From NCBI GenBank assembly GCA_001664505.1, contig CP011806.1, positions 3,473,385 through 3,537,384 on the forward strand: a DNA stretch of 64,000 nucleotides, in the 5' to 3' direction. Below, piece after piece: positions 40,061 to 59,283 of this stretch (its first letter is position 1; each line of letters opens with the position of its first letter). A program made the translations under genes and the position numbers. The notes under the pieces were generated by a model that searched no databases, was not told the origin of the DNA, and saw only the letters and a list, made by a program, of their open reading frames with translations. Origin of the DNA: Acidobacteria bacterium Mor1. GTDB lineage: Bacteria > Acidobacteriota > Polarisedimenticolia > Polarisedimenticolales > Polarisedimenticolaceae.

Positions 40061-41212
40061 CTAGTCGGGGGTGTAACGCACCGACAGGCCAGCTCGGTTC
40101 CGATGCCGCTCCAGCGCCAACCGGACGAGCCGGTCCAGGAGTTCCCCGTAGGATACCCCGCTTGCCTCCCAGAGTTTCGCGTACATGCTGATCGAGGTGA
40201 AGCCGGGAATGGTGTTGATCTCGTTGAGATCGATGCGGCCGCTCTGCCGGTCCAGCAGGAAGTCGACCCGGGCCATCCCGCTGCCCCCCACCGCCTTGAA
40301 GGCCTCGACCGCCAGGCTCTGGAGCTCGGCGGTTTGCCCGGGATCGAGCTCGGCGGGGATGACCAGCCGGGAGCTGTCCTCGAGGTACTTGGCCCGATAG
40401 TCGTAGAAGTCCCGCTCGGGAATGATCTCGCCGGGCACCGAGGCCTCGGGGATGTCGTTGCCCAGCACGCTGATCTCGATCTCCCGGGCGTCGACCCCCT
40501 TCTCCACCAGGACCAGGCGGTCGTAGCGCAGAGCCTCGTCGATCCCGGCCCGCAGCGATTCGGCATCGGTGGCCCGGGAGATGCCCACCGACGAGCCCAT
40601 GTTGGCCGGCTTGACGAAGACCTGGTTCCCCAGGGCTTCCAGCCGCTGCAGCACCGGCTCGGGGCCGGCCTCCCACTCCGCGGCCCGGACGACCATCCAG
40701 TCGACCACCGGCAGGCCGGCGCCCCGCAGCACCGTCTTGGTCAGGTGCTTGTCCATGCAGACCGCCGAGGCGGCCACGCCGCAGCCTACATAAGGAATGC
40801 CGAAGGTCTCGAGCATGCCTTGAAGGACGCCGTCTTCGCCGGTGGGGCCGTGAACCACCGGAAAGACCACGTCGAGCTGTTCGGGCACCCGGGGTTCGAG
40901 GGCCCCGGCGGCGGAGGTCAGGCCTCCGGCCTGGGCCGGGTCGGCGGACTGGGCCGCATCGGACTGGGCGGCCGCGGCCGCGGCCGCCGAGCCGTCGTCG
41001 GTCCCGGGCAGCCGGAAGGCCGCCGAGGCGTTGAGCAGATCCAGCGCGTCGGGACGGCAAATCCAGCGCCCCTCGGGCGAGATGCCAATCGGCAGCACCT
41101 CGTAGCCCTCGAGGCCGCGGAGCCCCTCGAGCACCGAAGCCGCCGAGGCCAGGGAGACTTCGTGCTCCCCCGACCGGCCGCCGAACATAACCCCGACCCG
41201 GATTTTCGTCAT
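40061..41212 (-). CDS. ddl: D-alanine--D-alanine ligase
   Basis: ATP-grasp enzyme joining two D-Ala residues for peptidoglycan; cytosolic. 383 residues, longer than the usual 300-370. Seen: N-terminal VGVMFGGRSGEHEVSLASA, HGPTGEDG (about 121-128), ATP-grasp core (QVFVKPANMGSSVGISRA, VLVEKGVDAREIEISVLG) and metal-binding GMARVDFLLDRQSGRIDLNE-INTIPGFTSISMYAKLWEA. An Ala-rich insertion (about 71-105, SAAAAAAAQSDAAQSADPAQ) is not part of the family core. The ATG at 41212 has no ribosome-binding site, but a TACTAT -10-like box lies 6 bases upstream, hinting at a leaderless mRNA. Confidence 0.95.
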   Translation of the reverse strand: MTKIRVGVMFGGRSGEHEVSLASAASVLEGLRGLEGYEVLPIGISPEGRWICRPDALDLLNASAAFRLPGTDDGSAAAAAAAQSDAAQSADPAQAGGLTSAAGALEPRVPEQLDVVFPVVHGPTGEDGVLQGMLETFGIPYVGCGVAASAVCMDKHLTKTVLRGAGLPVVDWMVVRAAEWEAGPEPVLQRLEALGNQVFVKPANMGSSVGISRATDAESLRAGIDEALRYDRLVLVEKGVDAREIEISVLGNDIPEASVPGEIIPERDFYDYRAKYLEDSSRLVIPAELDPGQTAELQSLAVEAFKAVGGSGMARVDFLLDRQSGRIDLNEINTIPGFTSISMYAKLWEASGVSYGELLDRLVRLALERHRNRAGLSVRYTPD

Positions 41213-41409
41213 GGAGGAATAGTACAGGACCCGGCGTGTAGGAGTAGCCGTGCCGGAAGCGAGATAGCAAGGGGCGGGAACCGAGGCCGCTCCGGCACCG
41301 TAAGCACTCATGGAGACCCCGTGAGAACCATCGAGACCGGCGGACAGACCACTCATTCGGCTGCCGGTGCCGTACGGCCGAAGCTCGAAACATCGCGGTG
41401 CTCCCCAGG

Positions 41410-41453: not shown

Positions 41454-42389
41454 ATGGCCACCGCCGTCGAATCACGGCCATCCGCATCCATTTCGATCAA
41501 GGGTCTGTCTCACCAATACAAGGGAGGCACCCGGGCCCTGGATCAGGTCGAACTGACGTTCGGCACCGGGCTGTTCGGGCTTCTGGGCCCCAACGGCGCC
41601 GGCAAGAGTACGTTGATGCGGATCATCTGCACGCTGCTCGTGCCCACCGCCGGCACCGTCACCGTGCGGGGCCACGACGTGGTCAAGGAGCGCAAGGCCG
41701 TCCGCGAGATCCTGGGCTACCTGCCCCAGGAGTTCGGCGGCTGGCGCCTGCACAAGGTCTCCGAGGTGCTCGACACCGTCGCTCGCCTGGCCGGCGACGG
41801 CAAGGACCGCAAGGCTCGCATCGCCAAGGTCCTCGAACAGGTCGGGCTCAGCGAGGTGGCCAACCGCAAGGTCAAGAAGCTCTCGGGCGGTATGCGCCGG
41901 CGGCTGGGCGTGGCCCAGGCGCTGATTCGCGACCCCGAAGTGCTGGTCGTCGACGAGCCGACCGTCGGCCTCGACCCCCAGGAGCGGCTGCGCTTCCGCC
42001 AGCTGATGGCAGACCTGGCCAAGGACCGCACGATCCTGCTCTCGACCCACATCGTCGCCGACCTCGGCTCCGCCTGCCGCGACATCGCGTTGATCGACGC
42101 CGGCAAGCTGGCCTTCCGCGGCAGCCCTGCGGATCTGGTGACGCAATCCAGGGGCAAGGTGTTCGAGGTATCGTTCCCCGCTGCCGCCCCCGAGGAGCTG
42201 GGCTCGGGAATCGAGATCGTCTCCCGCACACGTAACGCCGAAGGCACGTCGATCCGCGCCGTGACGACCAACCCGGACAAGCTGCCCGGCAGTCCCGTAG
42301 AGGTCGACAACCCCACACTGGAAGAAGCCTACCTGGCCTTCATGGCCGCCCGCGGCCGTGTTGACGCCGCCATCTCGGAGGAGCTCTAG
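41454..42389 (+). CDS. ABC transporter ATP-binding protein
   Basis: 311 residues. Walker A GPNGAGKST (about 45-53), Q-loop LPQEFGG, signature LSGGMRRRLGVAQ (about 144), Walker B VLVVDEP (about 164-170), D-loop GLDPQERLRFR and H-loop STHIV. It is the cytosolic motor for an ABC exporter; the partner is probably the next gene (abutting, TAG then ATG), a permease with extracellular domains. The C-terminal 80 residues (VFEVSFPAAAPEELGSGIEI) are the extra domain common in ABC-2-type exporters. First gene of the six-gene transporter operon. Confidence 0.95.
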   Translation: MATAVESRPSASISIKGLSHQYKGGTRALDQVELTFGTGLFGLLGPNGAGKSTLMRIICTLLVPTAGTVTVRGHDVVKERKAVREILGYLPQEFGGWRLHKVSEVLDTVARLAGDGKDRKARIAKVLEQVGLSEVANRKVKKLSGGMRRRLGVAQALIRDPEVLVVDEPTVGLDPQERLRFRQLMADLAKDRTILLSTHIVADLGSACRDIALIDAGKLAFRGSPADLVTQSRGKVFEVSFPAAAPEELGSGIEIVSRTRNAEGTSIRAVTTNPDKLPGSPVEVDNPTLEEAYLAFMAARGRVDAAISEEL

Positions 42390-45300
42390 ATGATTCGCCC
42401 CGGCATGGTGCTGGCCATCGCGGCCGCTGAATCACGCCTGACCCGACGCCTCGTGCGCTTCTGGATCTTCCAGGTCATCGCAATGCTCGCCGCGATCGCG
42501 TTCTCGGCCTACTACTCGGTGCTGCACCGGCAGTTCTCGTGGTTCTCGGGAACCATCGGCATGCTCAACCCCCGCTACCTGATCGGGTTCGTCGGGATCT
42601 ACTATCTCGTGCTCTTCCTCATCGGCCTGATTTTCCTCGGCTTCGACATACGTGCCCGGGATACACGCGAGCGGATGGACGAGGTGCTCGACTCATTGCC
42701 GATGACCAACGCCGAGCTGATGTGCGGCCGTTTTCTCGGCATTCTCTGGATGTCCTGGATTCCGGTCGTTCTCGCGGCCCTGATCATGTGGACCATCACC
42801 GCCATCGCCGGCAGCCCGGCGCAGCCGGTGTCCCTGATCAGCTTCGTCTTCATCCTCGCCATTCCGGCTTACACCCTGGCCCTCGGCCTGGTGTTCTTCC
42901 TGACCATGCTGGTCAAGCACCGGTTGGTCGCGGCGATCCTTTCGATCCTCATCGTCGGGGCCTTTGTCGTCAGCGGTTTCTACTTCGCGCCGATCTACGT
43001 GCTGCCGTTGCTGGACGTGACCGGCGGCTTCACCGTGCCCAACCCGTCGGACCTGGTGCCGACCCTGCTCGACGGGCGCACGATCGTGCAGCGGGTAGGC
43101 GCGATTCTCGCGGGCCTCGGCATGCTCTGGCTTGCCATCGGCCTGCATCCCCGGCGCGACGATTCGAACCGCGCGCTGACCTTCGGCCTCGGCGGCCTAA
43201 TGCTCGCCGTCGGCATCGGCCTCTGCGCGATGCAGGTCTGGCAGGCCAAAGGCATCATCGAGACCCGCAAGCAACTGGCCGATGTCCATCGTGCGCGGGC
43301 TGAAGAACCCGCGCCGGATGTGCAACGGATCACCGGGCGGGTCGACATCGGCAAGAGCGGTCTCGAGCTGAATCTCGCGATGACCGTGGCGGCGCCGGCC
43401 GAGTCCACACTGGACTCGGCACTCTTTTCGCTGAACCCGGGTATCGCCGTCGAGTCGATCTCTGCCGATGGGCAGAATCTAGGCTTCACCCACGACCAGG
43501 GGTTGCTCGAGGTCGAACTGCCCCGGAGCCTCTCCGGCGATGCGACATTGACCCTCGACATTGCGGCAGCCGGATATCCGCAGACCGAGTTCGCCTATCT
43601 CGACGGCGTGATCGAGCCGCTTGATGTCGACGTCAAGGATGCCAACCTGTTCCTGCTCGGATTCGAAACCCACTACCTGAACAAGTACTACGCGGCGCTG
43701 ATGCCCGGCGCGGTCTGGTTCCCGCGCAGCGGGCCCGCCACCGGTTCGCGGCAAGACTTCTTCGAGTTGGACCTCGAAGTCGGAGCCCCCGACGGCTGGT
43801 TGGTCGCCGGCCCCGGCAAGCGACAGGATGCGGGCAACGGTTTCCGCTTCGCGCCGCGCAGTCCGGTTCCCGAGTTCGCCCTGATGGCGGCGAAGTTCGC
43901 CGACCGCTCGATCGAGATCGACGGTGTGGAACTCGAACTTCTGGTGAGCCCCTCCCATGTGCGGAACCTCGATGTCTTCGAAGAGGCGGTCCCCCGCATC
44001 GAGGAGTGGGTCAGCAGCCGGCTGCAGGAAGCCGCCGACCACGGCGTCGCCTATCCCTACGACGGTTTGACCGTCGTCGAGGTCCCCAACGGCCTGCGCG
44101 GCTACGGAGGTGGCTGGCGGCACGAGTCGACGCTCGCCCAGCCGGGCATGATCCTGATGCGCGAGAGCGGATTCCCCACAGCCCGGTTCGACGTGGCCTT
44201 CGAGGAGGACCAAACCGAATCGATGGAAGACGATGACGGCGGTGTGCCCCAGGCACAGCTCGACGCGCTGCTGCGCTTCTTCGAGAACGACTTCAGTGGC
44301 GGCAACCCCTTCGTCGCGGCCTCCAAGAACTTCTTCTCCTACCAGACCGCAGGCACCGGCGAGTTCGGCCTCCCGATGAACTTCGTGCTGGACGACGTGT
44401 CGACCAAGCTCGTGACCGATCGGCAGGGCTACTTCTCGGTGCACCACTTCGGTGCCGAGATCGGACAGGTCGTGGGTGAGACGATTACCCGCGTCTTCGC
44501 CAATGACGAATCGGCGACCGACGCCATGATCGGAGCGGTCACCGCCCGCAGCGAGGTCTGGGACTCGACGTTGAACGTCAGCCTGGTCGACCTCGATCCC
44601 TGGGAGTCGCCGAAGCGCTCGCTGGACGTGCTGACCCTCAAGGGAGGCGCCATGGCGGACTCGCTGCTCGACGAACTCGGCCCGGCTCAGGTCGGGGAGC
44701 TGCTGGGTGCGCTACGCGAGCGCTATCCCGGCGACGTGTTCGAAGCGGACGACCTGGTCGCCGTTGGAGCGGAGATCGGCGTCGACATGCAGAGCTGGGT
44801 CGACGTCTGGCTCAACCAGACCCAGATCCCCGGCTTCACCCAGGGTACCGCGCGCTACATGCGGCTGGAAGATTCCGAGGACGGATCCCCCCGCTACCAG
44901 GTGCTCGTTCGCGTGCAAAACGACGAACCGATCGCGGGCCTGGTGAAGATCGACTATCGCATCGGCAAGGAGGACGACCAGGACCGCCCCCGTCAATCCT
45001 CGGATCCGGTCCGCATCGACGGCCTGGGAGCGGTCGAGATCGGCATCGTCGCCTCGGAGCCGATCCACAGCGTCCGGGTCGACCCCTACCTCTCACTCAA
45101 CCGGGAGCCGTTCCAGGTCAATCTCCCGTCCCTCGACGAGGAGAAGCTGGTAGACGCCGAGCCGGTGCTCGGGTTCCGGATCGTGGAACGGGACGCCGAT
45201 GACTCCGGCATCATCGTGGTGGACGACCTCGACGAAGGCTTCCGTGTGGTCGACGAACAGGGCACCAGCTTGCTGCGGGTCGGCGGCAAGCGTTCCACCG

Positions 45301-45746
45301 ACGTCGAGCTCGATCAGGGCTTGCCGGTTGCCCAGGCAGGTCAGACTCCGTCGGAATGGTCCCGCCGCGTATCCCGCACTTCGTGGGGCCGCTACCGGCA
45401 CACGACGGCACTGATCGGCAAGGGTTCAGGCAACAAGTTCGCCGTGTTCGAGGGGGATATCCCCAACGCCGGCCCGTGGGAGTTGCAAATCCACCTCCCC
45501 TCCGCACGCAATCCGAAGCGGCGCGGCGCATGGTCGCTGGTCGTCGAAGACAGTTCAGGAACGCGGGATGTCGATTTCGATGCCGCCGCAGGTGACGACG
45601 GCTGGAACTCCCTCGGCATCCACGAGCTCGCGGGCGGATCGGTGAAGGTGCGCCTGTCGAACGCCAATGAAGGTGGCCGCTATGTCGCCGCCGACGCAAT
45701 CCGCTGGATCCCCCAGACCAGCGGAGCCGGAAAGGACCGTAGCTGA
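42390..45746 (+). CDS. ABC-2-type permease fused to degenerate M1 peptidase and golvesin-like domain
   Basis: 1118 residues. Six or more membrane helices in the first ~290 residues (FWIFQVIAMLAAIAFSAYYS, YLIGFVGIYYLVLFLIGLIF, ILWMSWIPVVLAALIMWTIT, IPAYTLALGLVFFLTMLVKH, LVAAILSILIVGAFVVSGFY and others). Then a periplasmic region (about 320-850) related to M1 aminopeptidases (LDVFEEAVPRIEEWVSSRLQ, YPYDGLTVVEVPNGLRGYGG, STLAQPGMILMRESGFP) in which no HExxH zinc motif occurs (HHFGAEIG takes its place). A C-terminal golvesin/xly carbohydrate-binding-like domain (about 985-1110, ending YVAADAIRWIP) follows. M1-fused ABC permeases are known; this one is probably non-catalytic. Abuts the ATPase gene; its stop overlaps the adaptor ATG (TGATG). 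Confidence 0.85.
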   Translation: MIRPGMVLAIAAAESRLTRRLVRFWIFQVIAMLAAIAFSAYYSVLHRQFSWFSGTIGMLNPRYLIGFVGIYYLVLFLIGLIFLGFDIRARDTRERMDEVLDSLPMTNAELMCGRFLGILWMSWIPVVLAALIMWTITAIAGSPAQPVSLISFVFILAIPAYTLALGLVFFLTMLVKHRLVAAILSILIVGAFVVSGFYFAPIYVLPLLDVTGGFTVPNPSDLVPTLLDGRTIVQRVGAILAGLGMLWLAIGLHPRRDDSNRALTFGLGGLMLAVGIGLCAMQVWQAKGIIETRKQLADVHRARAEEPAPDVQRITGRVDIGKSGLELNLAMTVAAPAESTLDSALFSLNPGIAVESISADGQNLGFTHDQGLLEVELPRSLSGDATLTLDIAAAGYPQTEFAYLDGVIEPLDVDVKDANLFLLGFETHYLNKYYAALMPGAVWFPRSGPATGSRQDFFELDLEVGAPDGWLVAGPGKRQDAGNGFRFAPRSPVPEFALMAAKFADRSIEIDGVELELLVSPSHVRNLDVFEEAVPRIEEWVSSRLQEAADHGVAYPYDGLTVVEVPNGLRGYGGGWRHESTLAQPGMILMRESGFPTARFDVAFEEDQTESMEDDDGGVPQAQLDALLRFFENDFSGGNPFVAASKNFFSYQTAGTGEFGLPMNFVLDDVSTKLVTDRQGYFSVHHFGAEIGQVVGETITRVFANDESATDAMIGAVTARSEVWDSTLNVSLVDLDPWESPKRSLDVLTLKGGAMADSLLDELGPAQVGELLGALRERYPGDVFEADDLVAVGAEIGVDMQSWVDVWLNQTQIPGFTQGTARYMRLEDSEDGSPRYQVLVRVQNDEPIAGLVKIDYRIGKEDDQDRPRQSSDPVRIDGLGAVEIGIVASEPIHSVRVDPYLSLNREPFQVNLPSLDEEKLVDAEPVLGFRIVERDADDSGIIVVDDLDEGFRVVDEQGTSLLRVGGKRSTDVELDQGLPVAQAGQTPSEWSRRVSRTSWGRYRHTTALIGKGSGNKFAVFEGDIPNAGPWELQIHLPSARNPKRRGAWSLVVEDSSGTRDVDFDAAAGDDGWNSLGIHELAGGSVKVRLSNANEGGRYVAADAIRWIPQTSGAGKDRS

Positions 45747-46852
45747 TGCTCTGCTCTGTCAACGACCGCACTCGGCGGAGAACCTGGTTCGGGTGCGCGG
45801 CTCTGATCGCATTGGCTCTGGTCGGGGCCGGCTGTACGCCGCCCCCTGCCGAGGGGGAGATCGAGTTCAGCCCCGAGGTGTTCGTCGAGACCATCGGCAC
45901 CGGGGATGTCGAGGATCGGATCGTGTGCACCGGCACCCTCCGATCCCCCGAGACCTCCTCGCTTCGGGCCGATACGGCCGGCGCCCTGGCGATCGGTAGC
46001 GACTCGGCGGGCCGGCGCCTGGCCGAGGGATCGCGGGTTGAAGCCGGCCAGGTCATCGCCGAGATCACCGGCGAGGAGGTTCGGCTCGCGGCACGCACCG
46101 ACGCGACCCGGGAGCGCTACGAAACCTCCAAACGGGACTACGACTCGACCCGCAGCCTGCACGCCGACGGGTTGGTCAGTGATGCGGAACTGGCGTCCGC
46201 CGAGGCCAACGTCGCCGAGGCACGGGTCGAGTTGGAGCGTAGCCGTTTGACCGAAACCCGCTCGAAACTGACCACCCCGATCTCCGGCGTCATCATCTCG
46301 CTGGCTCGAGATGACCGGGGACGCCCGCTGCCCAACGGACAGCTGGTCGCCCAGGGCCAGGTCGTCGCGGAGATCGCACCGACCTCGCGCCTCATCGCCG
46401 ACGTCGACGTGGTCGGCCCCGACGTCGCCCGGATCACCCCGGGCCTGACAGCCCGCGTGCGGCATCACGCATGGGATGACGAGCGCTTCACCGGCCGCGT
46501 CAGCCGGCTGGCGCCGACCCTGGATCCGACCACGCGCACCCTGCGTGCCGAGGTCACGGTGAACAACGGGGGCGGCAAGCTTCGGCCCGGCATGTTCGTC
46601 GAAGCCACGGTGGTCGCCGAGAGACGCGAAGGGGTCGTCGTCGCGCCCCGACAAGCGGTGACCGAACGGCAGGGCCGCAAGGTGGTGTTCGTCATCCGCG
46701 GTCAGCGGGTCGAGAAGCGCGAGATCGCCCTCGGGCTCGGTGACGACGAGATCGTCGAGGTGCGCTCGGGTCTGGAAGCCGGAGAGCGGGTAGTGATTCG
46801 CGGCCTCGAGACCTTGACCGACAACAACAAAGTCAACGTGTCGGGAGACTGA
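45746..46852 (+). CDS. RND efflux adaptor lipoprotein (membrane-fusion protein)
   Basis: 368 residues. Lipoprotein signal ending LVGAGC (Cys30), then the adaptor architecture: beta-barrel strand IETIGTGDVEDRIVCTGTLR-like start, a biotinyl-lipoyl half (LAEGSRVEAGQVIAEITGEE), a coiled-coil hairpin (about 118-165, ESAEANVAEARVELERSR-type), second lipoyl half (LTTPISGVIISLARDDRG) and membrane-proximal domain (VVIRGLETLTDNNKVNV). It bridges an inner-membrane pump to an outer-membrane channel. It overlaps the permease gene (TGATG) and precedes the RND gene by 1 base. No outer-membrane TolC-type gene is in the window. Confidence 0.93.
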   Translation: MLCSVNDRTRRRTWFGCAALIALALVGAGCTPPPAEGEIEFSPEVFVETIGTGDVEDRIVCTGTLRSPETSSLRADTAGALAIGSDSAGRRLAEGSRVEAGQVIAEITGEEVRLAARTDATRERYETSKRDYDSTRSLHADGLVSDAELASAEANVAEARVELERSRLTETRSKLTTPISGVIISLARDDRGRPLPNGQLVAQGQVVAEIAPTSRLIADVDVVGPDVARITPGLTARVRHHAWDDERFTGRVSRLAPTLDPTTRTLRAEVTVNNGGGKLRPGMFVEATVVAERREGVVVAPRQAVTERQGRKVVFVIRGQRVEKREIALGLGDDEIVEVRSGLEAGERVVIRGLETLTDNNKVNVSGD

Positions 46853-46853
46853 G

Positions 46854-49800
46854 GTGGAATCGCTCGCGCGCCTGGCGACCCGCAGGCCGGTCGCCGTCGC
46901 GGTCATGGCCGCCACCCTGGTGATCCTCGGCTGGATCGCCTGGGGCAAGCTTCCGCTGGACATGCTCCCCGACCTGCAGTCGCCGACCGTCGTGGTCTCG
47001 GTGCGCTCGGGCGACCGCCCGCCCACGGAGATGGAACGGATCTACGGCGAGCAGATCGAACAACGGCTGTTCGCCGTCGGCGGCATTCGCGAGATTTCCC
47101 AGGTCGCGCGCACCGGACGCATCGTGGCCACGGTGGTGTTCTCCTGGGGCACCGACATGGATTTCGCGCTGGTCGAGGTGGAGAAGGCCGCCGGCCCGAT
47201 CCGCTCCGACCCCGACGTGGAAGACGTGTTGGTGCGGCGTTTCGACCCGCGTCAGGCGCCGGTACGAACCCTGGGACTGGTGGCCGAACCCGATGGACCC
47301 TCCCTCTCGGAGTTGCGGCGCGTGGCCGACCGTCAGGTCGCCACGGCCCTCGAACGTCTCGAAGGGGTAGCGGAAGCACGGGTCACCGGCGGCCGCGAGG
47401 AAGAGGTACGGGTCGAGGTCGACCCGTACAAACTCGAGTCCTTCGATCTCACCCTTTCGACCGTCGAGTCCCGCCTGTCCGCCGCGAACGTGGACATCAA
47501 CGCGGGCACCCTGGAAGACGGCGGCAAGGTCTACCTGGTCCGGGGTCTCGCACGCTACCGCACGCCCGAGGATATCGCCGACGTCGTGCTGCGCTACGGC
47601 GGCGATGGAGACGAGCGCTCGGCGATCCGGGTCGGCGACGTCGCCCGGGTGAGGCTGACCGACGCCGAGATCTCGCACCTGGTTCGTGTGGACGGCGGCG
47701 AGGGGGTCGGGCTCGCTGTCTACAAGGAGGCGGGGAGTAACACCGTGGCCGTGTCCCGGGCAGTCAGCGAAGCGCTGGAAGGCATCGCCGACGATCTACC
47801 CGGAATTCGCATCGTCGAGGTGGTCGACGACGCGGCGTTGGTCGAAGACTCCATCGCCGACGTCAAGGAAGCGGCGCTCATCGGCGTGGCTCTGGCCATG
47901 CTGGTCCTGGTGTTGTTCCTGCGTTCGCCCGGGCCCACCGCGATCGTCGCGACGGCGGTCCCGGTATCGCTGCTCACGACCCTGTTCCTGATGAACTTCG
48001 GCGATCGCAGCCTCAACATCATGACCCTCGGAGGGCTCGCCCTGGGCGCAGGCATGTTGGTGGACAACGCCATCGTCGTCGTCGAGAGTATCTTCCGCCG
48101 TCGGTCGGAGGGGTTGGACCTGGCCGAGGCGTCGGCCCGGGGAACCGCCGACGTGGCCGGCGCCATCGTCGCCAGCACCATGACCACCTGTGCCGTGTTC
48201 CTGCCGGTGGTCTTCGTCAAGGGCCTGGCGGCTCGGCTGATCGCCGGACTGTCCTTCACCGTGGTTGTCTCGCTCCTGGCGTCGCTGTTCGTCGCCATCT
48301 TCCTGATTCCGGCGTTGGCGAGTTGGCTCTTGCCCCGCGGACGCACCCGGGAGGCCGACCCGGGCGTCGGCAGAACCGAGAAACTCGTCGCCGTGCTCCT
48401 GAAGCAGCCGCTGCTGGTCAGCATCGCGGCGGTGTTGCTGGCAGGAAGCGCGGTCTGGTCCCTGTCGACCCTCGGTAGCGAACTGCTGCCCCCTTCGGAT
48501 CCCCGGCAGTTCTCGGTGAGAATGGTCGGTCCGGCAGGCCAGCGGGTCGAATCGACCGCCCAGGCGGTATCCACCGTCGAGCAGGTTCTGCGAGTCGCCG
48601 CGGGAGACCACCTCGAGGCGATGCTCTCGGAGGTGGGACGCATCCCGGAGGACGACCGCACGATCCGCGATGAGCAGACCGAGGAGAACACCGCGCGGAT
48701 CCTGGTGCGTCTGGCTGCCGGCGGACCGAGCGGGACCGCCATCGTCGAACGGGTGGCGCCGGTCGTCGCCGAGATGAGCGGTATCGAGGCCTCCTGGGAG
48801 GTCGGCGCGTCGGCGTTGTCCCAGGCGTTGGGCACCAGCGGCCCACCGATCGAGATCGAGATCGCCGGCCAGTCGCTGGAAAACCTCCGAAGCGGGGCGG
48901 CCGAGGTGCGGCAGGCACTGGCCGAGCGCGCTCAACTCTGGAACGTGCGTTCATCCTTCGAAGGCGGACCGCCGGAATTGCGGGTCCGCCTGGAGCAGAC
49001 CCTCGCCGACGGCCTCGGCATCGACATCGCGGCGGTCGGCGCCGCGATCGAGTCTTCGCTGGACGGACGCAAGGTCACCACCCTCGCGCTGGGCGACGAG
49101 GAGCGGGACGTGATGCTGCGCCTGCCGGGCGTTCGAATGGATGAGCTGCACCGGATTCCGATGACCACCAGCTCCGGCGCCCGTCTGGCCGTGGGCGACG
49201 TCGCGGTATTCGAGCACCACGAAGGCGCCCGGGAGGTCTTTCGGCGGGACCAACGCCGCATCGCCCTGGTGACGGCGCGCATTGCTCCCGGATACGAATA
49301 CCCCGAGGCCATGGCCGCGGCCCGGGAGGTACTCGCCGAGGTCGGCCTGCCGGGGATGCGCGCCGAGCTCACCGGTGAGGAAGAAGAACGGATCAAGACC
49401 TTCGGAGAACTGCAACTCGCCGGCATCCTGGCCATCGTCCTGTTGTTCATGGTGCTGGCCGGCACCTTCGAGTCGTTGATTCATCCGCTGACCGTGGTCA
49501 TGTCGGTTCCGCTGGCCTCGATCGGCGTCGCCGCCGTCCTCGTGCCCCGGGGATACCCCATCGGCGTGATGGAAGCGCTGGGCTTGATCGTGCTGGCCGG
49601 TGTCGCCGTCAACGACGCGATCCTGCTGGTCGGAACTGCCCGGCGATTGATGGGCGAGGGGCTCGAGCGGAATGCCGCCCTCGCCCGGGCCGCCGCGCTG
49701 CGGCTGCGCCCCATCCTGATGACCACGGCGACCACCGCGTTGGCCCTGATCCCCCTGGCCGTCGGCGCCAGTGAATCGGCACGGCTGCGTAGCCCGCTGG

Positions 49801-49907
49801 CGCTGACGATCATCGGCGGCATCGTCGCCTCCACCCTCGGCTGCCTGCTGGTGATTCCCTGCATCTACTCGGTGCTCGATCGCGTCGGGAGACTGGGTCG
49901 TCGATGA
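46854..49907 (+). CDS. RND efflux permease
   Basis: 1017 residues, AcrB/CusA-like proton-driven exporter. Shows the RND plan: TM1 (VAVAVMAATLVILGWIAWGK), porter half, TM block (ALIGVALAMLVLVLFLRSPG, NIMTLGGLALGAGMLVDNAI), second TM1-like segment (PLLVSIAAVLLAGSAVWSLS), second porter, second TM block ending IIGGIVASTLGCLLVIPCIY. The relay residues in TM4 are D404-N405 (LVDNAIVVVE) instead of the DD pair of AcrB; DN occurs in several RND groups. GTG start, 1 base after the adaptor stop. Overlaps the next RND-ABC gene by ATGA. Substrate cannot be told. Confidence 0.95.
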   Translation: MESLARLATRRPVAVAVMAATLVILGWIAWGKLPLDMLPDLQSPTVVVSVRSGDRPPTEMERIYGEQIEQRLFAVGGIREISQVARTGRIVATVVFSWGTDMDFALVEVEKAAGPIRSDPDVEDVLVRRFDPRQAPVRTLGLVAEPDGPSLSELRRVADRQVATALERLEGVAEARVTGGREEEVRVEVDPYKLESFDLTLSTVESRLSAANVDINAGTLEDGGKVYLVRGLARYRTPEDIADVVLRYGGDGDERSAIRVGDVARVRLTDAEISHLVRVDGGEGVGLAVYKEAGSNTVAVSRAVSEALEGIADDLPGIRIVEVVDDAALVEDSIADVKEAALIGVALAMLVLVLFLRSPGPTAIVATAVPVSLLTTLFLMNFGDRSLNIMTLGGLALGAGMLVDNAIVVVESIFRRRSEGLDLAEASARGTADVAGAIVASTMTTCAVFLPVVFVKGLAARLIAGLSFTVVVSLLASLFVAIFLIPALASWLLPRGRTREADPGVGRTEKLVAVLLKQPLLVSIAAVLLAGSAVWSLSTLGSELLPPSDPRQFSVRMVGPAGQRVESTAQAVSTVEQVLRVAAGDHLEAMLSEVGRIPEDDRTIRDEQTEENTARILVRLAAGGPSGTAIVERVAPVVAEMSGIEASWEVGASALSQALGTSGPPIEIEIAGQSLENLRSGAAEVRQALAERAQLWNVRSSFEGGPPELRVRLEQTLADGLGIDIAAVGAAIESSLDGRKVTTLALGDEERDVMLRLPGVRMDELHRIPMTTSSGARLAVGDVAVFEHHEGAREVFRRDQRRIALVTARIAPGYEYPEAMAAAREVLAEVGLPGMRAELTGEEEERIKTFGELQLAGILAIVLLFMVLAGTFESLIHPLTVVMSVPLASIGVAAVLVPRGYPIGVMEALGLIVLAGVAVNDAILLVGTARRLMGEGLERNAALARAAALRLRPILMTTATTALALIPLAVGASESARLRSPLALTIIGGIVASTLGCLLVIPCIYSVLDRVGRLGRR

Positions 49908-52900
49908 GCGGCGGGGTGCGGAACGACCTGTTTGCCATTCCGGTCCGGCGGCCGGTCGCGACGGCGATGTTCTTTCTGGGAATCGTGCTGCTGGGGCTGA
50001 TCGCCTGGCAGCGCATCCCGGTCAACCTGCTGCCCGACGTGGCGGGTGAACAGCTGTTCGTCACTTTTGCCCGGCCCGGTAGCGAACCGGAGGTCATCGA
50101 GCGGGAAATCCTGCTGCCGCTGGAGTCCCGGGCATCGCTGCTGGAAGGCCTGGACGAGACCCGGGCCACGATTCGAGGTTCCGGCGGCACTCTGACCCTC
50201 GAGTTCCGGCCGGGTACCGATCTGGCCGTACGCGAACTCGAGATGCGTCGGCTGGCGGCGGACCTGGTCCGCGAGCAACCTGCCGGCACGACGATCAACG
50301 TCAACAACTCCGACATCAGCCAGGCGGTCGGCTTCGCCATGTTCATCCAGGTCACCGGGATGGACGACCTGAACAGCCTGATGGACCTGGTCGACGATCA
50401 GGTCGTCCCTCGAATGGCGGCGGTCGACGGGGTCTCCCGGGTCAGCGCCGGAGGGGGAGCACCTCAGGAACTGACCGTGGAAATCGATCCCGACCGCTGC
50501 GCCGCTCTGGGCATCGAACCGGGGCAGGTCGTCTCATCGCTGTCACGTTCGGTCCAGCGCCTGGACTATCTGGGCGGCATCGAGGGCCGGGATCGCCGCA
50601 CTGCGGTCGTGCTTGACGGGCGGCCCCGGGGCATCGACACCCTCTCCCGAAGCCGCGTCGTCGCCGACCGGCCGGTGGAACTTCGCCACGTCGCCGATAT
50701 CGAGTTCGGCACGAGCGAGATGCAGACGCTGCTGCGGGTCAACGGGGAGCCGACGGTCGGCATCGTCGTCTTCCAGGACGAGGATGCGAACCTGATTCGC
50801 CTCGGCCGGGCGCTGCGCTCGCGACTCGACGAGCTCCGCGAAGAGTTCGCCCCCTACAACCTGGACTTCGTGATCAACTTCGATGCGGCGAAGGACCTGA
50901 TCGAGAAACAGCTGGACCGGCTCAAGGAGCTGGCGCTCACCGGGTTCGTCATCGCGCTGGTGGTGCTCTTCCTGTTCCTGCGCCAGTGGCGCGCCGTCGC
51001 GGTGGTTGCGGTAGCGGTGCCCACCAGCCTGCTGGCTGCCCTGGCCCTGCTCTATGTGGCCGGGCTCTCGCTCAATCTGATCACCCTGTTCGGGCTCGGC
51101 GTCGTGATCGGCGCCCTGGTCGACAACAGCATCGTCGTCTACGAGGCGGTGCAGCGCCAGCTGGAGCACGGCGCCCACGCCGACGATGCCGCCGCAGACG
51201 GCATCCGGCGCACGGTCCGGGCGATCCTCGCCGCCAGCGCGACCAACGCGGTGGTGTTCCTGCCGTTGATGTTCGCCGACTTCGCCGCCGCCGAACTTCG
51301 CGCCTATCTCGAGATCATGGCGCTGGCGATTCTGTTGCCGATGGTCGGATCGGTGTTGGTCGCCATCGGGCTCGTTCCGCTGCTGGCCCGTCGTCTCGCC
51401 GCCCCGGCTGCCCTTGCCCGGGTCAAGCGGGTGCGGGAGGAACGGCAACGCACCGGCGGGCTGAAACCGCCGGACCGGGCCGGTGAACTCTTCATCGGCA
51501 CGCTGATCGTGGCCCTCCGGCGACCGGGCATCTGGGTTACCGGCGTCGTCACGGCGCTGCTGATCACCGTCGTGTTCGTGCTACCGACCGTCGCGGTGAC
51601 CAGCTTGAATCAGGATCCTCCGCAGGAGGACACCGTGCGTCTGGCGGTGACCCTCGACTCGGCGGATTCCCTCGACCGTGCCTCGGAGCTTTTCGCGCTG
51701 CTGGAACAGGAAGTGATGAAGCTCGACGGCATCGAAGGGGTCGACAGCACCATCCAGGAAGAGAACGGGCAGCTGACGGTGCGGCTCCCCGACGCCGAGG
51801 ATCGCCCCGAGGGCCTGAACGCGGCCACGGTACGCGCCGCAGCCCGGCGGGTCGAGAGCCAGTCCAGAGGCGCCCTGGAACTGGATACGGTTCAGGATGG
51901 CTTCGGCGGTGGAGGTGGTCTGGCCGCCCTGACCGACACCAGTTCTACCGAGGTCTTGATCTCCGGACCGGAGACTCGCGGGCTCCTGTCGCTGGCAGGC
52001 GAGTTGGCCGGCCGGCTGGAGTCGATTGCCGAGATCGACACCGCACGGATCTCCTCCCGCTCGGCGCAAGACGAACTGCGTGTGGTCGCCGACGACATGG
52101 CGATGAACGCCTTCCGCCTGACCCCCGACCAGGTTCTCCCGGCGCTCAACACCGTGCGTCGTGAGGGAGTCGCCATGCAGGTCGGATTCACCCTGCCCGA
52201 CGGCCGGGAGATTCCGCTGACCGTACGCCGCCAGGCACCCCCACGCCGCGCGATCAAGGATCTCGAGCGTCTGCGGCTCAACACGAGTTCGGGAGTGCTG
52301 CCCCTGGAAGCGGTTGCCGACGTTCGACGAATGCCCCCGCCGCCGACGATCACCCATGAGAACGGCAGGCGCCAGGTCAAGGTCAGCTACACGCTGGGCC
52401 GCGAGGCGCCGACGACGGGGAACGCAAGACTCTCGCTGGACCGGCGGATCACCGACGCCGTCGGCGAGGTCTATCGCCCTGCGGGCTACACGATCGAGGT
52501 TCCCGACCCGGACGACTCCTACAGCTGGTTCCGCTCGCTGCTGATCCCGGTGCTGCTGCTGTTGTTCGCGGTGCTGGCCATCACCTTCGAATCGATGACC
52601 ATGCCGGTCCTGGTGCTCCTGTCCCTTCCCCTGACGGTGCTCGGTGCAACCTGGGCGCTACTGCTGGGGGACGTGCCAGGCCTGGACCCGATGGCGTTGA
52701 TGGGTGTGCTGGCCCTGATCGGCCTCACCGTCAATCCCGCGATCCTGCTGGTCGACCGGATGCAGGCACGGGTCCGGCTCAGCGGGTTCAGCGCCGGCGC
52801 TGCGGCCCTCGCGGCGGTGCGCGAGCGCACGCGTCCGGTCTTGATGACCACGGCGACGACCGTTGCCGGCCTGTGGCCGCTGGCCTTGAGCACCGGGCAG

Positions 52901-54691
52901 GCCAACGAACTGTGGCCTCCTTTCGCCACCGTGGTCATGGGCGGCCTGGTCACCTCTACCCTGCTGACCCTGCTCGTCATCCCGGTCGGCTTCGTCTTCC
53001 TTCATCGACTGGACGGCATCTTCGGCCGGCTGGGACCGTGGGTCGTCATTGGCTGGGCCGCGGCGGTCAGCCTGACGATGGTTCCGCTGATCCGCTACGA
53101 GATCATCCAGTCGACCACCTGGCAGATCATGACCACGTTGCTGGTCGGTTCCCTGTTCCTCGGGCTCGCAGCCCTCATCTTCCGGCGTGTGCCGTTGGTC
53201 GAACCGGCCACGGTGGGAGGAGCGCCGCCGACCCTCGAGGTGCGTTACCTGAACAAGGTCTACGGACGCCCCGGGCCGATCGGCCGGGCCTGGAGAGTTC
53301 AGGAGCGCTTCGCCAACGCGGTGCTGGCACGAGGCGGGCAGCCGTTCACTCCCGCCCGTGCCCGGGAACGATTGCTGCCGTTGCTGCTGTTGTTCCTCGG
53401 CGCCGGCTACCTGGCCTTCTCCGTCGGTGCCATCGGCTGGCGGCTTATCTTCGTTTTCGGCGCGGCCGCCCTTGCCGCCGGCTTCTGGCGCCAGGTCCGC
53501 TGTGCCCGGGGCCTGGCCGACGAACGCGGGCGGGTGCTCCCCGGCGGCGTGGAGAACCTGCTGGCGGTCGCCTGCCCCTGGATCGCACTGAGCCTGGTGC
53601 TGTTGCTCTGGACCCGGCTCGGATCCTTCGCCCAGGGCCTGCTGGAAAGCGCCGGCCGGAACGACCTTCGTCTCTGGGTCCCCGCCGTGATCGCGGTGAT
53701 CATCCTGATCGCTCAACTCGGACGGCGCACCGCCAAACGGCTGGCGCTGGGCACCCTGAGCGAATCGGTAACCGACGAGAGCTTCGCTGGTCTGCGCCGC
53801 AGCTGGCGCCGGCTCTCCCGCCGGGTCTTCGGGTTGGACTTGCCCCGCGAAGAGGTCCACGCCGTGCGCGGGGTGCACTTCACCGCCGAACGCGGAATGG
53901 TCGGCGTGCTGGGCCCCAACGGCGCCGGCAAGACGACGCTCTTGAGAACCATCGCCGGCATTTTGGATCCGACCGTCGGCGCCGTGCGCATCGGCGACGT
54001 GCCCCTCGATCATCTGCGCAAACGTCTCGCGCGCTACCAGGGCTACCTGCCGCAAGACTTCGGACTCCCCGGCGATCTGACCGCACGTGAGTACCTGGAG
54101 TACTACGCGCTGCTCTACGAGATCAAGCCGGCGGCCCACCGAGCCGAGCGCGTCGACCGACTGCTCAAGGAGGTCGGACTCGGCGAGAAGGCGGACTCCA
54201 AGATCGGCAGTTACTCGGGAGGTATGCGCCAGCGAGTCGCGGTAGCGCGCACCCTGCTGCGGCTGCCCCCGATCATCATCGTCGACGAACCGACCGTCGG
54301 ACTCGACCCCCGTGAACGGATTCGGTTCCGCAACCTGCTGTCCCGGCTGGCCGAAGGCCGGATCGTGTTGTTCTCGACCCACGTCGTCGAGGATGTGGCG
54401 GTCGCCTGTGAACGAGTGATCGTGATGGCCCGGGGCAAGATCGTGTTCGACGGAGTGCCCGACGACCTGCAGGACGAGGCGGTGGGCAAGGTCTGGGAGA
54501 TCACCCTGAACGAAGACATCCGCCCCGAGGTGCCCGAGGGAGCCATGGTCGTGGACGAGGTACCTGTAGGGGACGGACGGGTGCGCACCCGGGTGCTGCA
54601 CGACGTCCAACCTCACCCCGAAGCGGCCGCGGTCGATCCGGTGCTCGAAGACGGATACCTGTGGCTCGCCGGCGCGGGAGGTCCGCGATGA
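49904..54691 (+). CDS. RND permease fused to ABC ATPase (hybrid transporter)
   Basis: 1595 residues in one frame. Residues 1 to about 1050 are a complete RND permease: N-terminal TM1 (AMFFLGIVLLGLIAWQRIPV), relay D407-N408 (GALVDNSIVVYE), two porter halves and the final TM block (LTVNPAILLVDRM, VVMGGLVTSTLLTLLVIPVG). From about 1050 come two more helices, then PPTLEVRYLNKVYGRPGP (about 1109-1126), which resembles the first strand of an ABC nucleotide-binding domain, then about 190 residues with five or more membrane helices, and from about 1315 the rest of an ABC ATPase: Walker A GPNGAGKTT (1337-1344), Q-loop LPQDFG, signature YSGGMRQR (about 1437), Walker B IIIVDEP (about 1460), H-loop STHVV. 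All ABC motifs are intact. No frameshift or internal stop is seen, so the fusion is encoded as such. Overlaps by ATGA with both neighbours. Confidence 0.9.
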   Translation: MSGGVRNDLFAIPVRRPVATAMFFLGIVLLGLIAWQRIPVNLLPDVAGEQLFVTFARPGSEPEVIEREILLPLESRASLLEGLDETRATIRGSGGTLTLEFRPGTDLAVRELEMRRLAADLVREQPAGTTINVNNSDISQAVGFAMFIQVTGMDDLNSLMDLVDDQVVPRMAAVDGVSRVSAGGGAPQELTVEIDPDRCAALGIEPGQVVSSLSRSVQRLDYLGGIEGRDRRTAVVLDGRPRGIDTLSRSRVVADRPVELRHVADIEFGTSEMQTLLRVNGEPTVGIVVFQDEDANLIRLGRALRSRLDELREEFAPYNLDFVINFDAAKDLIEKQLDRLKELALTGFVIALVVLFLFLRQWRAVAVVAVAVPTSLLAALALLYVAGLSLNLITLFGLGVVIGALVDNSIVVYEAVQRQLEHGAHADDAAADGIRRTVRAILAASATNAVVFLPLMFADFAAAELRAYLEIMALAILLPMVGSVLVAIGLVPLLARRLAAPAALARVKRVREERQRTGGLKPPDRAGELFIGTLIVALRRPGIWVTGVVTALLITVVFVLPTVAVTSLNQDPPQEDTVRLAVTLDSADSLDRASELFALLEQEVMKLDGIEGVDSTIQEENGQLTVRLPDAEDRPEGLNAATVRAAARRVESQSRGALELDTVQDGFGGGGGLAALTDTSSTEVLISGPETRGLLSLAGELAGRLESIAEIDTARISSRSAQDELRVVADDMAMNAFRLTPDQVLPALNTVRREGVAMQVGFTLPDGREIPLTVRRQAPPRRAIKDLERLRLNTSSGVLPLEAVADVRRMPPPPTITHENGRRQVKVSYTLGREAPTTGNARLSLDRRITDAVGEVYRPAGYTIEVPDPDDSYSWFRSLLIPVLLLLFAVLAITFESMTMPVLVLLSLPLTVLGATWALLLGDVPGLDPMALMGVLALIGLTVNPAILLVDRMQARVRLSGFSAGAAALAAVRERTRPVLMTTATTVAGLWPLALSTGQANELWPPFATVVMGGLVTSTLLTLLVIPVGFVFLHRLDGIFGRLGPWVVIGWAAAVSLTMVPLIRYEIIQSTTWQIMTTLLVGSLFLGLAALIFRRVPLVEPATVGGAPPTLEVRYLNKVYGRPGPIGRAWRVQERFANAVLARGGQPFTPARARERLLPLLLLFLGAGYLAFSVGAIGWRLIFVFGAAALAAGFWRQVRCARGLADERGRVLPGGVENLLAVACPWIALSLVLLLWTRLGSFAQGLLESAGRNDLRLWVPAVIAVIILIAQLGRRTAKRLALGTLSESVTDESFAGLRRSWRRLSRRVFGLDLPREEVHAVRGVHFTAERGMVGVLGPNGAGKTTLLRTIAGILDPTVGAVRIGDVPLDHLRKRLARYQGYLPQDFGLPGDLTAREYLEYYALLYEIKPAAHRAERVDRLLKEVGLGEKADSKIGSYSGGMRQRVAVARTLLRLPPIIIVDEPTVGLDPRERIRFRNLLSRLAEGRIVLFSTHVVEDVAVACERVIVMARGKIVFDGVPDDLQDEAVGKVWEITLNEDIRPEVPEGAMVVDEVPVGDGRVRTRVLHDVQPHPEAAAVDPVLEDGYLWLAGAGGPR

Positions 54692-55395
54692 ACTTCGGAA
54701 CCCGGCTGCGCGACGGTATTCGGCTGATACACCTCTCGACGCGAATGGTCGCCGGACGCCGCTACTGGATCTGGCCGCTGGTGACGTTGATCTGGCCGCT
54801 GTTCCAGCTCTTCCGCGTCGTGATGGAGTGGCGCGAAGCGTTCGGCCCCGGCGATGCCCAGAACGCCCTGATCGGCATCCCGATGACCGTGCTCGGTCTG
54901 ATGCTCGGCATCCGGAGCATCGCCGGCGAGATCGATGCCCGTACCCTGGAGATTGCGTACACCGTTCCCGGTGGCGCCACTCGAGTCTGGACCGCCAAGT
55001 TGCTCGGCGGCCTCAGCCTCCTGCTCTTCTCGGAGTTCTTGTTGGCGGCCGTCAGCTACGTGTTCGCCACCTCTTTCCCGATCGGCGCGCTCTACGGCGC
55101 GCTACAGGGAGCCGTCGTCTACGCCGTGCTGGGAATGGGGCTCGCGACATTGCTGAAGAGCGAATCCGCGGGCGGCCTGATCGCCCTGGGCGTGCTGGCG
55201 TTCAACTTCCTGATCCAGGCCGGCAACGGACGGATCTCTCCGTTCTTCAACCCGACCCTCATGACCGACGCAGAGGTTCCCGAGGTTCTCGCCTGGACCG
55301 TACAGAACCGGATCGGGTTCGCCCTGATCGTCGCCGCGATAATCGCGCTGGCCTTCAGCCGCTCGGATCAGCGGGAGCGCATGCTCGGAACGTAG
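54688..55395 (+). CDS. ABC-2-type transporter permease
   Basis: 235 residues, six predicted helices: YWIWPLVTLIWPLFQLFRVV, IGIPMTVLGLMLGIRSIAGE, LGGLSLLLFSEFLLAAVSYV, AVVYAVLGMGLATLLKSESA, GLIALGVLAFNFLIQAGNG, IGFALIVAAIIALAFS. The cytoplasmic loop EIDARTLEIAYTVPGGATRV-WTAKL fits the ABC-2 coupling helix. ATG at 54688 overlaps the fused gene's stop (ATGA), with GGGAGG 6 bases upstream; an in-frame GTG at 54661 is less likely. Probably the membrane partner of the ATPase fused to the second RND pump. Confidence 0.88.
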   Translation: MNFGTRLRDGIRLIHLSTRMVAGRRYWIWPLVTLIWPLFQLFRVVMEWREAFGPGDAQNALIGIPMTVLGLMLGIRSIAGEIDARTLEIAYTVPGGATRVWTAKLLGGLSLLLFSEFLLAAVSYVFATSFPIGALYGALQGAVVYAVLGMGLATLLKSESAGGLIALGVLAFNFLIQAGNGRISPFFNPTLMTDAEVPEVLAWTVQNRIGFALIVAAIIALAFSRSDQRERMLGT

Positions 55396-58062: not shown

Positions 58063-59171
58063 ATGAGGCTTTCCGTCCTGCTCGCCATGATCGTTCTGTT
58101 GGCGTTCTCCCCGGCCACGCCCTGCGCCCCGCGACATCCGGAGGCCACCATGGGGCCGAATCCCGGCGAGGGCGCGGCCCATGATGCTCCTCCGGTCCGG
58201 ATCCGGAGCGCGGCAACCGATGCCGATCAGGACGGAGTCCCCGACGACATCGACAACTGCCCCGATACGTTCAACGCGGCCCAGCGGGATGTGGACGTCG
58301 ACAGCATCGGCGACCTTTGCGACAACTGCCCGTACGTGAGCAACGGAGGACAGATCGACCCGACGGAGACGGCGCCGGCAACCTGTGTGACTGCGACACG
58401 AACGACCCTGCGCTGCGGGAACCGGGGGCTGTCCCGGACCTGCTCGCCGAACGTATCGGCGTCACGGCACATCTGAGTTGGGGCGAAGCCCCCGGTTTCT
58501 CGAGCTATGGCGTCACTCGTGGACTCCTGTCCGCACTGTCGCCCGACAACTACGGCGATTGTCTGGCAGAGGATCTGACCGAACGCGCCCTGAGCGACAC
58601 CGACCTACCGCCAGTGGGCGACGCCTTCTTCTACCTGGCGGGAGCCGAGAACGCGGATTGCGGCCTGGGGCCGCTGGGCTTCGATTCCGACGAGGCGCCG
58701 CGAGTCAACGGGTCGCCCGGGGCTTGCGGACCGGAGACGGTGACCGACTACCGAGCTCAGTCCGAGAACTTCGTCTTTGGCTACGTGAACGGAACCTTCT
58801 CCTGGACCTGGAGTTCCGATGACATGTACCAGTCGATTCGAGAAGAGCGAGAAGGAAGCAACGCGCTCCTCGAGCACCAGTGGATCTTCCTCATCACCGG
58901 CGGTGACCGGGTCGAGCTTCATATCGAGGGGTACCGTTCCCCCGCGGAACGGATGGAGTGGTCCCTTTCCCGGACGAACGGCGCAACATGGGAGGCACTA
59001 CCCTTCCCCGACCTACCGCAAGAGGACGACGACATGGCTCAGGTACTGGAACTACCAGACGATCTCGACGGCAGCTTCCTGATCCGGGTAAAGGACGAGG
59101 GCCTACCCTCCGACGTCATTCGGCTGGACCGCGTCTGGGTCGATCAGATGTTCGTACGGGTGATCGACTGA
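58063..59171 (+). pseudogene. Secreted thrombospondin type-3 protein, disrupted by a frameshift
   Basis: Signal peptide (MRLSVLLAMIVLLAFSPATP), two TSP3 calcium repeats (DADQDGVPDDIDNCPDTFNA then DVDVDSIGDLCDNCPYVSNG), then after about 58360 the continuation DGDGAGNLCDCDTNDPALRE is in the next frame, running to 59171. Comparison with the neighbouring paralogue (CPDVSNPAQIDSDGDGAGDDCDC) shows that one base is missing near 58356-58364; the total span is one base short of a multiple of three. The rest aligns with the paralogue to the end (SSYGVTRG, YGDCLAED, FFYLAGAENADCGLGPLGFD, TGGDRVELHIEG). Either a pseudogene, an assembly error, or a phase-variable gene. Confidence 0.75.
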
Positions 59172-59283
59172 CTTTGCGGTGCCGCGCTCCGCGAGTTTGT
59201 CCCGGCTCGATACCTTGACATCTCGCCTGGTGCGGCGTAAGCAGCAGGGCGTAACACTTCGCAAAACGTCCTGGGGTCTGCCA

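Follow-up and report, generated by a model that had tools for sequence, protein, structure and literature searches.

A golvesin-tailed ABC permease with a pseudo-M1 peptidase fold in a six-gene ABC-RND operon of Acidobacteria bacterium Mor1

Why would a membrane transporter carry a peptidase fold devoid of the metal motif of a peptidase, and which partners would such a protein serve? This question is posed by an ATP-binding cassette (ABC) permease gene in a 64,000-nt window (the whole stretch of DNA analyzed here) of Acidobacteria bacterium Mor1 (contig CP011806.1, positions 3,473,385 to 3,537,384). The gene, at 42390-45746 (+), is a single open reading frame (ORF) with an ATG start that encodes 1118 aa. 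An earlier note, made from the letters of the DNA, had read it as an ABC permease whose periplasmic M1 peptidase fold lacks HExxH, probably binds rather than cleaves, and is followed by a golvesin-like tail. ORF analysis, Pfam, an AlphaFold2 model and structure comparison identified the product as an ABC-2 permease half (NosY-like) joined to a periplasmic pseudo-M1 fold, an immunoglobulin (Ig)-like domain and a Golvesin_C tail. The data below further support a wider interpretation, which takes in a six-gene operon of ABC and resistance-nodulation-division (RND) genes, an RND pump fused to a split ABC ATPase, wide conservation and copy-number expansions.

Domains of the permease and the lost peptidase site

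We delimited the domains by combining profile searches with an AlphaFold2 model built on a 50-sequence alignment (mean pLDDT 91.1, pTM 0.87). Residues 1-302 (42390-43295) hold eight hydrophobic stretches and gave a sub-threshold ABC-2 membrane match in Pfam; model residues 5-256 superposed on NosY (7o0y_E) with Z 20.7 (228 residues, 2.8 Å), which bears out the claimed ABC permease. The NosY-type combination of an ABC-2 helix bundle with an abutting ATPase gene carrying intact motif patterns is present. Pfam returned no Peptidase_M1 match for the protein, so the M1 assignment to residues 303-815 (43296-44834) required other evidence; the NCBIfam scan was likewise without a match. A profile of ten family sequences reached the Deinococcus M1 enzyme 6iff/6a8z with E 1.2e-9, and also the C-terminus of the xanthan lyase 6f2p (E 1.4e-6), the latter being the sole match when the single 1118-aa sequence was searched against the PDB (E 0.19). 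Model residues 301-815 matched M1 enzymes (6iff/6koy, LTA4H, ERAP1, IRAP) with Z 20 to 22.5, the highest value being that for 6koy (389 residues, 3.8 Å). M1 enzymes were also the top Foldseek matches of the model (8cgp, E 8.5e-18), with TM-scores of only about 0.3 because the match covers one domain of a long chain. Downstream, a beta-rich domain follows at residues 816-927 (44835-45170), Ig-like by our own reading of the model secondary structure, and Golvesin_C (PF25275) at residues 988-1105 (45351-45704; E 3.6e-12, 46.9 bits against a cut-off of 31.6). The same domain scored over the cut-off in three of the four other family members scanned (L017, L095, L023) and just under it in L079 (31.2). 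The domain search for M1 and golvesin that the earlier note had proposed hence recovered the tail and not the peptidase fold, which profile and fold comparison provided.

Relatives of the permease were found at 28-48% identity in 15 of 60 genomes, own genome included. A single-sequence search of the genome_contigs collection retrieved no relative, whereas an alignment search yielded 132 confirmed ones, from which 79 loci were kept; with this many relatives, the ORF is not a chance one. Alignment A2 comprises the protein and sequences from 49 of these loci (50 rows), leaving aside partial, frameshifted and uncertain-start loci, some near-duplicates, and others for length. A wider set of 105 ORFs was drawn from 78 of the 79 loci; L085 contributed none. 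At L085 an early stop leaves 697 aa, which may reflect a pseudogene or an assembly error.

Neither HExxH nor HxxxH occurs anywhere in the 1118-aa protein, as the earlier note had stated for HExxH, and no aligned row has HExxH at the catalytic place (0/50). Similarly, none of the 105 ORFs has the motif 20-140 aa after the VExP strand. It does occur elsewhere in three of them (L058, L067, L084), a frequency that fits chance, since 55 of 2100 shuffled ORFs contain one; we accordingly rejected these as real sites. A helix at residues 640-650 (44307-44339), placed approximately by hhalign and model secondary structure, lies near the place of the lost motif. At the position of the catalytic Tyr (Y-x-K-G; residue 749) the protein has T, and Y is kept in only 5 of the 50 rows.

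Comparison with enzymes that share the architecture set this loss in context. Six ABC/M1 fusions from Alteromonadales genomes (long open frames with PF01433) all retain HExxH, located at +42 to +48 from the VExP strand in five of them; in the sixth, L114, the motif is present and our script did not locate the strand. All six have Y at the catalytic position. Their 11-13 hydrophobic stretches lie mostly in the first ~600 residues, with two permease halves. The family with the lost site aligned to these fusions with an hhalign probability of 99.6 (E 2.1e-24, 814 columns), the alignment beginning at template residue 311, that is, in the second permease half of the active fusion. The family thus looks like a relative of the ABC/M1 fusions with one permease half, an inactive M1 domain and a new tail. 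In the own genome, 11 M1 matches included none recognized as an ABC fusion, some of these loci being incomplete.

What the family has retained is the apparent edge of the groove. Residues 555-600 (44052-44189), with the VExP strand, GGGWR at the GAMEN place and RES, showed a mean pairwise identity of 59.5%, against 32-41% for whole domains, and were the most conserved stretch compared. The string listed in the earlier note as an M1-like landmark, PYDGLTVVEVPNGLRGYGGG, is indeed there and begins at residue 556. GGGWR has near variants in the other rows shown, and a literal GAMEN is also missing from all six ABC/M1 fusions, so its loss alone is a weak criterion.

This conservation, together with E516, H523, E564 and E592, each kept in 50/50 rows (K751 in 47/50), could be taken to mean that the domain is still a hydrolase, acting through other metal-site residues or a metal-free mechanism. 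We regard this as very improbable. H523 is the sole invariant His of the M1 part, the runner-up H685 being present in 32/50 rows, and H523, E564, E592 and K751 appear to correspond to invariant residues in the HExxH-bearing fusions; the first three consequently look like framework and not like a replacement site. Residue conservation in the 50 rows also led us to reject the substitution of HExxH by another zinc motif. Because the six related fusions retain HExxH, the M1 domain is best described, on sequence grounds, as a derived family of predicted pseudo-peptidases that has lost the zinc site family-wide and kept the groove edge. The combination of a site lost throughout, a catalytic Tyr mostly gone and a most conserved cleft-edge stretch supports the proposal that the domain binds rather than cleaves.

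The operon and its RND-ATPase fusion

The permease gene is the second of six that span 41454-55395 (+) with intergenic gaps of 0, -1, +1, -4 and -4 bp. It is preceded by an ABC ATPase gene (41454-42389, 311 aa; PF00005, E 1.3e-31), whose product is hereafter referred to as nucleotide-binding domain (NBD) 1, and followed by genes for an HlyD/RND-type periplasmic adaptor (45746-46852, 368 aa; TIGR01730, E 2.2e-53, over cut-off), RND permease 1 (RND1; 46854-49907, 1017 aa; PF00873, E 1.4e-200), RND permease 2 fused to an ABC ATPase (RND2-ABC; 49904-54691, 1595 aa; PF00873 at residues 12-1034 and PF00005 at 1323-1464), and a second, small ABC-2 permease (54688-55395, 235 aa; PF12679, 27.5 bits, cut-off 27.2). 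All lie on the forward strand. Walker A, Walker B, signature and H-loop patterns are found in both ATPases, and the operon has the adaptor and RND permease of a tripartite RND system. PADLOC gave general ATPase models for the two ATPases (best mad3, E 3.9e-27) and nothing for the permease, and a defence role was not adopted.

The fused ATPase has an unusual layout. In the AlphaFold2 model of the C-terminal part (pLDDT 83.8, pTM 0.71), the first NBD strand (72-81; 53234-53263) is followed by long helices at 111-134, 138-162, 177-208 and 215-243, and only then by the remaining NBD. LptB residues 2-231 spread over model residues 70-547 with just 226 residues aligned (1.8 Å), so the modeled NBD is interrupted by an insert of four predicted membrane helices (53264-53854). 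This insert is conserved in 25 aligned sequences; alignment A5 leaves out L043, whose DNA has ambiguous bases. At 32 of 34 loci, RND2 and the ATPase are fused within a single open frame.

We consider it reasonably probable that the six genes specify a two-half ABC-2 exporter with a pseudo-peptidase/lectin-like receptor, coupled to the RND pumps as one trans-envelope machine. The exporter would probably be heterodimeric, with NBD1 and the domain fused to RND2 (NBD2) as its ATPases and the 42390-45746 and 54688-55395 products as its membrane subunits. ABC and RND parts most likely act as one machine, given the covalent link of NBD2 to one RND pump and the presence of genes for the adaptor and the other RND pump in the same operon; the co-occurrence of the fusion with the permease, described below, also speaks for such coupling. 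The ATP-driven part would take cargo out of the inner membrane or move the periplasmic receptor, in which the pseudo-M1 domain, by its retained cleft edge, would bind cargo or a partner. The receptor might then pass cargo to the RND/adaptor conduit, the outer-membrane channel being supplied from elsewhere in the genome. From the M1 ancestry, our guess is that the cargo is a peptide or glycopeptide. The Golvesin_C tail would add a contact of carbohydrate-binding type. Glycan contact is plausible by homology, since the passages of PMC9166713 on this domain report glycan-array binding for the CBM6-CBM35-CBM36_like_2 (IPR033803) domains of two Bacteroides proteins, Cbeg4 and Cbeg5, and name a xanthan lyase and golvesin as the characterized carriers. 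PF25275 is presumably the same domain as IPR033803.

The fold of the membrane domain also accommodates a mechanotransmission or chaperone role, in which ATP would move the pseudo-M1/Golvesin arm to aid maturation of an envelope protein or glycan, nothing would pass through the membrane domain of the ABC part, and the pathway would use the RND pumps for a different task. NosDFY is the model for this type of action, and NosY is the closest fold to the membrane domain. The periplasmic part, which is large and rigid and has a conserved groove, would suit it as well. PMC3924187, in its passages on TC 3.A.1.145, gives multi-copper enzyme maturation as the annotation of a related fusion (3.A.1.145.3). 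The covalent RND-ABC fusion and its co-occurrence with the permease argue instead for direct coupling to transport, and we judge mechanotransmission unlikely.

Distribution, co-occurrence and copy number

Loci of the family come from records named as Acidobacteriota, Gammaproteobacteria, Deltaproteobacteria and, in one case, a Bacteroides metagenome-assembled genome (MAG); names of MAGs may be wrong. Adaptor, RND1, RND2-ABC and the small permease lie downstream in this order at 30 of the 54 loci whose downstream sequence extends for 9.5 kb or more, and both this order and the layout of the RND2-ABC fusion recur across Acidobacteriota and Proteobacteria MAGs. At L117:2-11234, a distant member from the phylum, the same gene set falls into two divergent groups, with ATPase and permease in one and adaptor, RND1 and RND2-ABC in the other.

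Permease and fusion also go together by genome. In the 60-genome sample, permease and insert were both present in 13 genomes and both absent from 44, with two carrying the permease alone and one a weak match to the insert alone (Fisher 2.7e-10); in a sample of 149 genomes of the phylum, 12 had both, three (including G041) the permease only, none the insert only and 134 neither. Because some genomes belong to both samples and the genomes are related to one another, Fisher values overstate independence and the counts show association, not independent events. The apparent lack of the fusion in G041, a genome scored as permease-only in both samples, was rejected on inspection: a full-length diverged fusion (31% identity over 1552 columns), missed by the linker search, lies near its permease, ATPase, adaptor and RND1. 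In G037, permease and RND2-ABC are both present, about 1.7 Mb apart.

The number of permeases per genome varies widely. Ten genomes, reached via chosen named loci picked in part for tandem copies and hence not a fair sample, gave 31 (G060), 29 (G061), 22 (G064), 20 (G062), 12 (G063), 11 (G069, some being pieces of one gene), 4 (G068), 3 (G067), 2 (G065) and 1 (G066) matches. All ten carry the RND2-ABC fusion, as one gene each and two in G067; G063 gave a further match, but this is a fragment that spans 47 positions. Some Gammaproteobacteria thus combine 20-31 permease matches, partly in tandem, with one RND-ABC gene. L077 and L079, from Gammaproteobacteria MAGs of ~2.6 Mb with 29-31 matches per genome, hold tandem arrays of five to seven or more pseudo-M1 permease genes, L079 with seven consecutive M1-domain ORFs; at the end of its contig, L069 shows a permease copy and the beginning of another. 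Copies within L077 and L079 are 43-66% identical among themselves, and those of L077, L079, L082, L086 and L091 are nearest to other loci (52-94% identity), for which reason we rejected recent duplication as the origin of all tandem copies; in L073, L083 and L093 it is the neighboring copy that is nearest. Between tandem copies, the Golvesin and C-helical parts are 44-47% identical and the 555-600 stretch 77-78%.

These figures invite a more specific, tentative proposal, to which we give slightly less than even chances: a two-engine envelope machine in which the RND-ABC fusion, with its membrane-spanning NBD insert, physically links the ABC exporter to the RND pumps and couples ATP hydrolysis to RND transport, and in which the pseudo-M1/Golvesin permeases serve as receptors that can be swapped for one another. 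A single RND-ABC core in some Gammaproteobacteria would then work with ~30 diverged receptor permeases, several of which persist as distinct lineages from species to species. Tens of permease copies per fusion gene would also fit a view of ABC exporter and RND pump as independent transporters that share an operon, with the fusion just fixing stoichiometry, as would the dispersal of the genes in G060 and G061, where RND2-ABC and the small permease are encoded away from the others. That the same split-NBD fusion is found in Acidobacteriota and Proteobacteria MAGs, down to the 31% identity of G041, and accompanies the permease across genomes makes such independence quite improbable.

The dispersal in G060 and G061 and the shared membership of the two samples nonetheless weigh against a single ABC-RND machine with a pseudo-peptidase receptor, and so do several other points. 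An ATPase gene lies within 600 bp upstream at just 36 of 73 loci, and an adaptor gene within 600 bp downstream at just 39 of 72; many of the remaining loci are further copies outside the operon. An outer-membrane channel gene is not among the six operon genes, 14 OEP matches being found elsewhere in the genome. The place of the lost zinc helix depends on a profile alignment (hhalign), the partner of the Golvesin tail may be a protein and not a glycan, and complex formation, receptor role and hand-off are what we infer from computation.

Around the operon, an ORF at 40061-41356 (-) that by eye resembles D-Ala-D-Ala ligase adjoins it divergently. Farther downstream, the adjacent ORFs at 58317-59171 and 59179-62040 resemble each other over their last ~200 residues (from SSYGVTRG... 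onward), and the larger one has Asp-rich repeats in addition; judged by eye from the ORF list, a gene for a secreted protein seems to have been partly duplicated here.

Relation to known systems

ABC transporters, driven by ATP, and RND transporters, driven by the proton gradient, are regarded as distinct engines. If our reading holds, this conserved operon would be a natural case of both engines within one machine, and the pseudo-peptidase kept on a transporter across phyla would be a likely receptor, strongly expanded in particular lineages. We found no description of an RND-ABC fusion or a golvesin-tailed permease in the open-access literature, which is weak evidence of novelty. The component parts are known; what may be new is the joining of pseudo-M1 and Golvesin to an ABC permease and of an RND pump to a split ABC ATPase, the latter perhaps more novel than the permease itself.

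Some RND systems, such as MdtABC, have two different RND permeases and one adaptor. The operon resembles such systems in its adaptor and two RND permeases, but one of these is fused here to a helix-interrupted ABC ATPase and ABC-2 permeases are encoded alongside. With NosY of NosDFY (7o0y) the permease shares the membrane-domain fold, to which a periplasmic part of ~800 residues is attached here. It has the fold of the M1 metallopeptidases 6iff/6koy, LTA4H, ERAP1 and IRAP, whereas zinc motif and GAMEN are absent and the catalytic Tyr is mostly gone. Golvesin_C carriers such as the xanthan lyase 6f2p and Cbeg4/Cbeg5 are linked to it by PF25275 over the cut-off and by the match of the family profile to the 6f2p C-terminus; the lyase is an enzyme and Cbeg4/Cbeg5 have a secretion signal according to the part of PMC9166713 that treats them, whereas here the domain ends an ABC permease. 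Also close in architecture are the TC 3.A.1.145 fusions, in which, by fold and profile, an ABC-2 membrane domain is likewise joined to a C-terminal M1 domain. Their Myxococcus member Q1D520 (TC 3.A.1.145.1) is presented in the passages of PMC3924187 on this family as a protein of 1200 aa with 13 transmembrane segments and a zinc-dependent M1 domain, whereas the Mor1 permease has eight hydrophobic stretches in one permease half, an M1 domain devoid of HExxH, an added Golvesin_C tail and a place in an RND operon.

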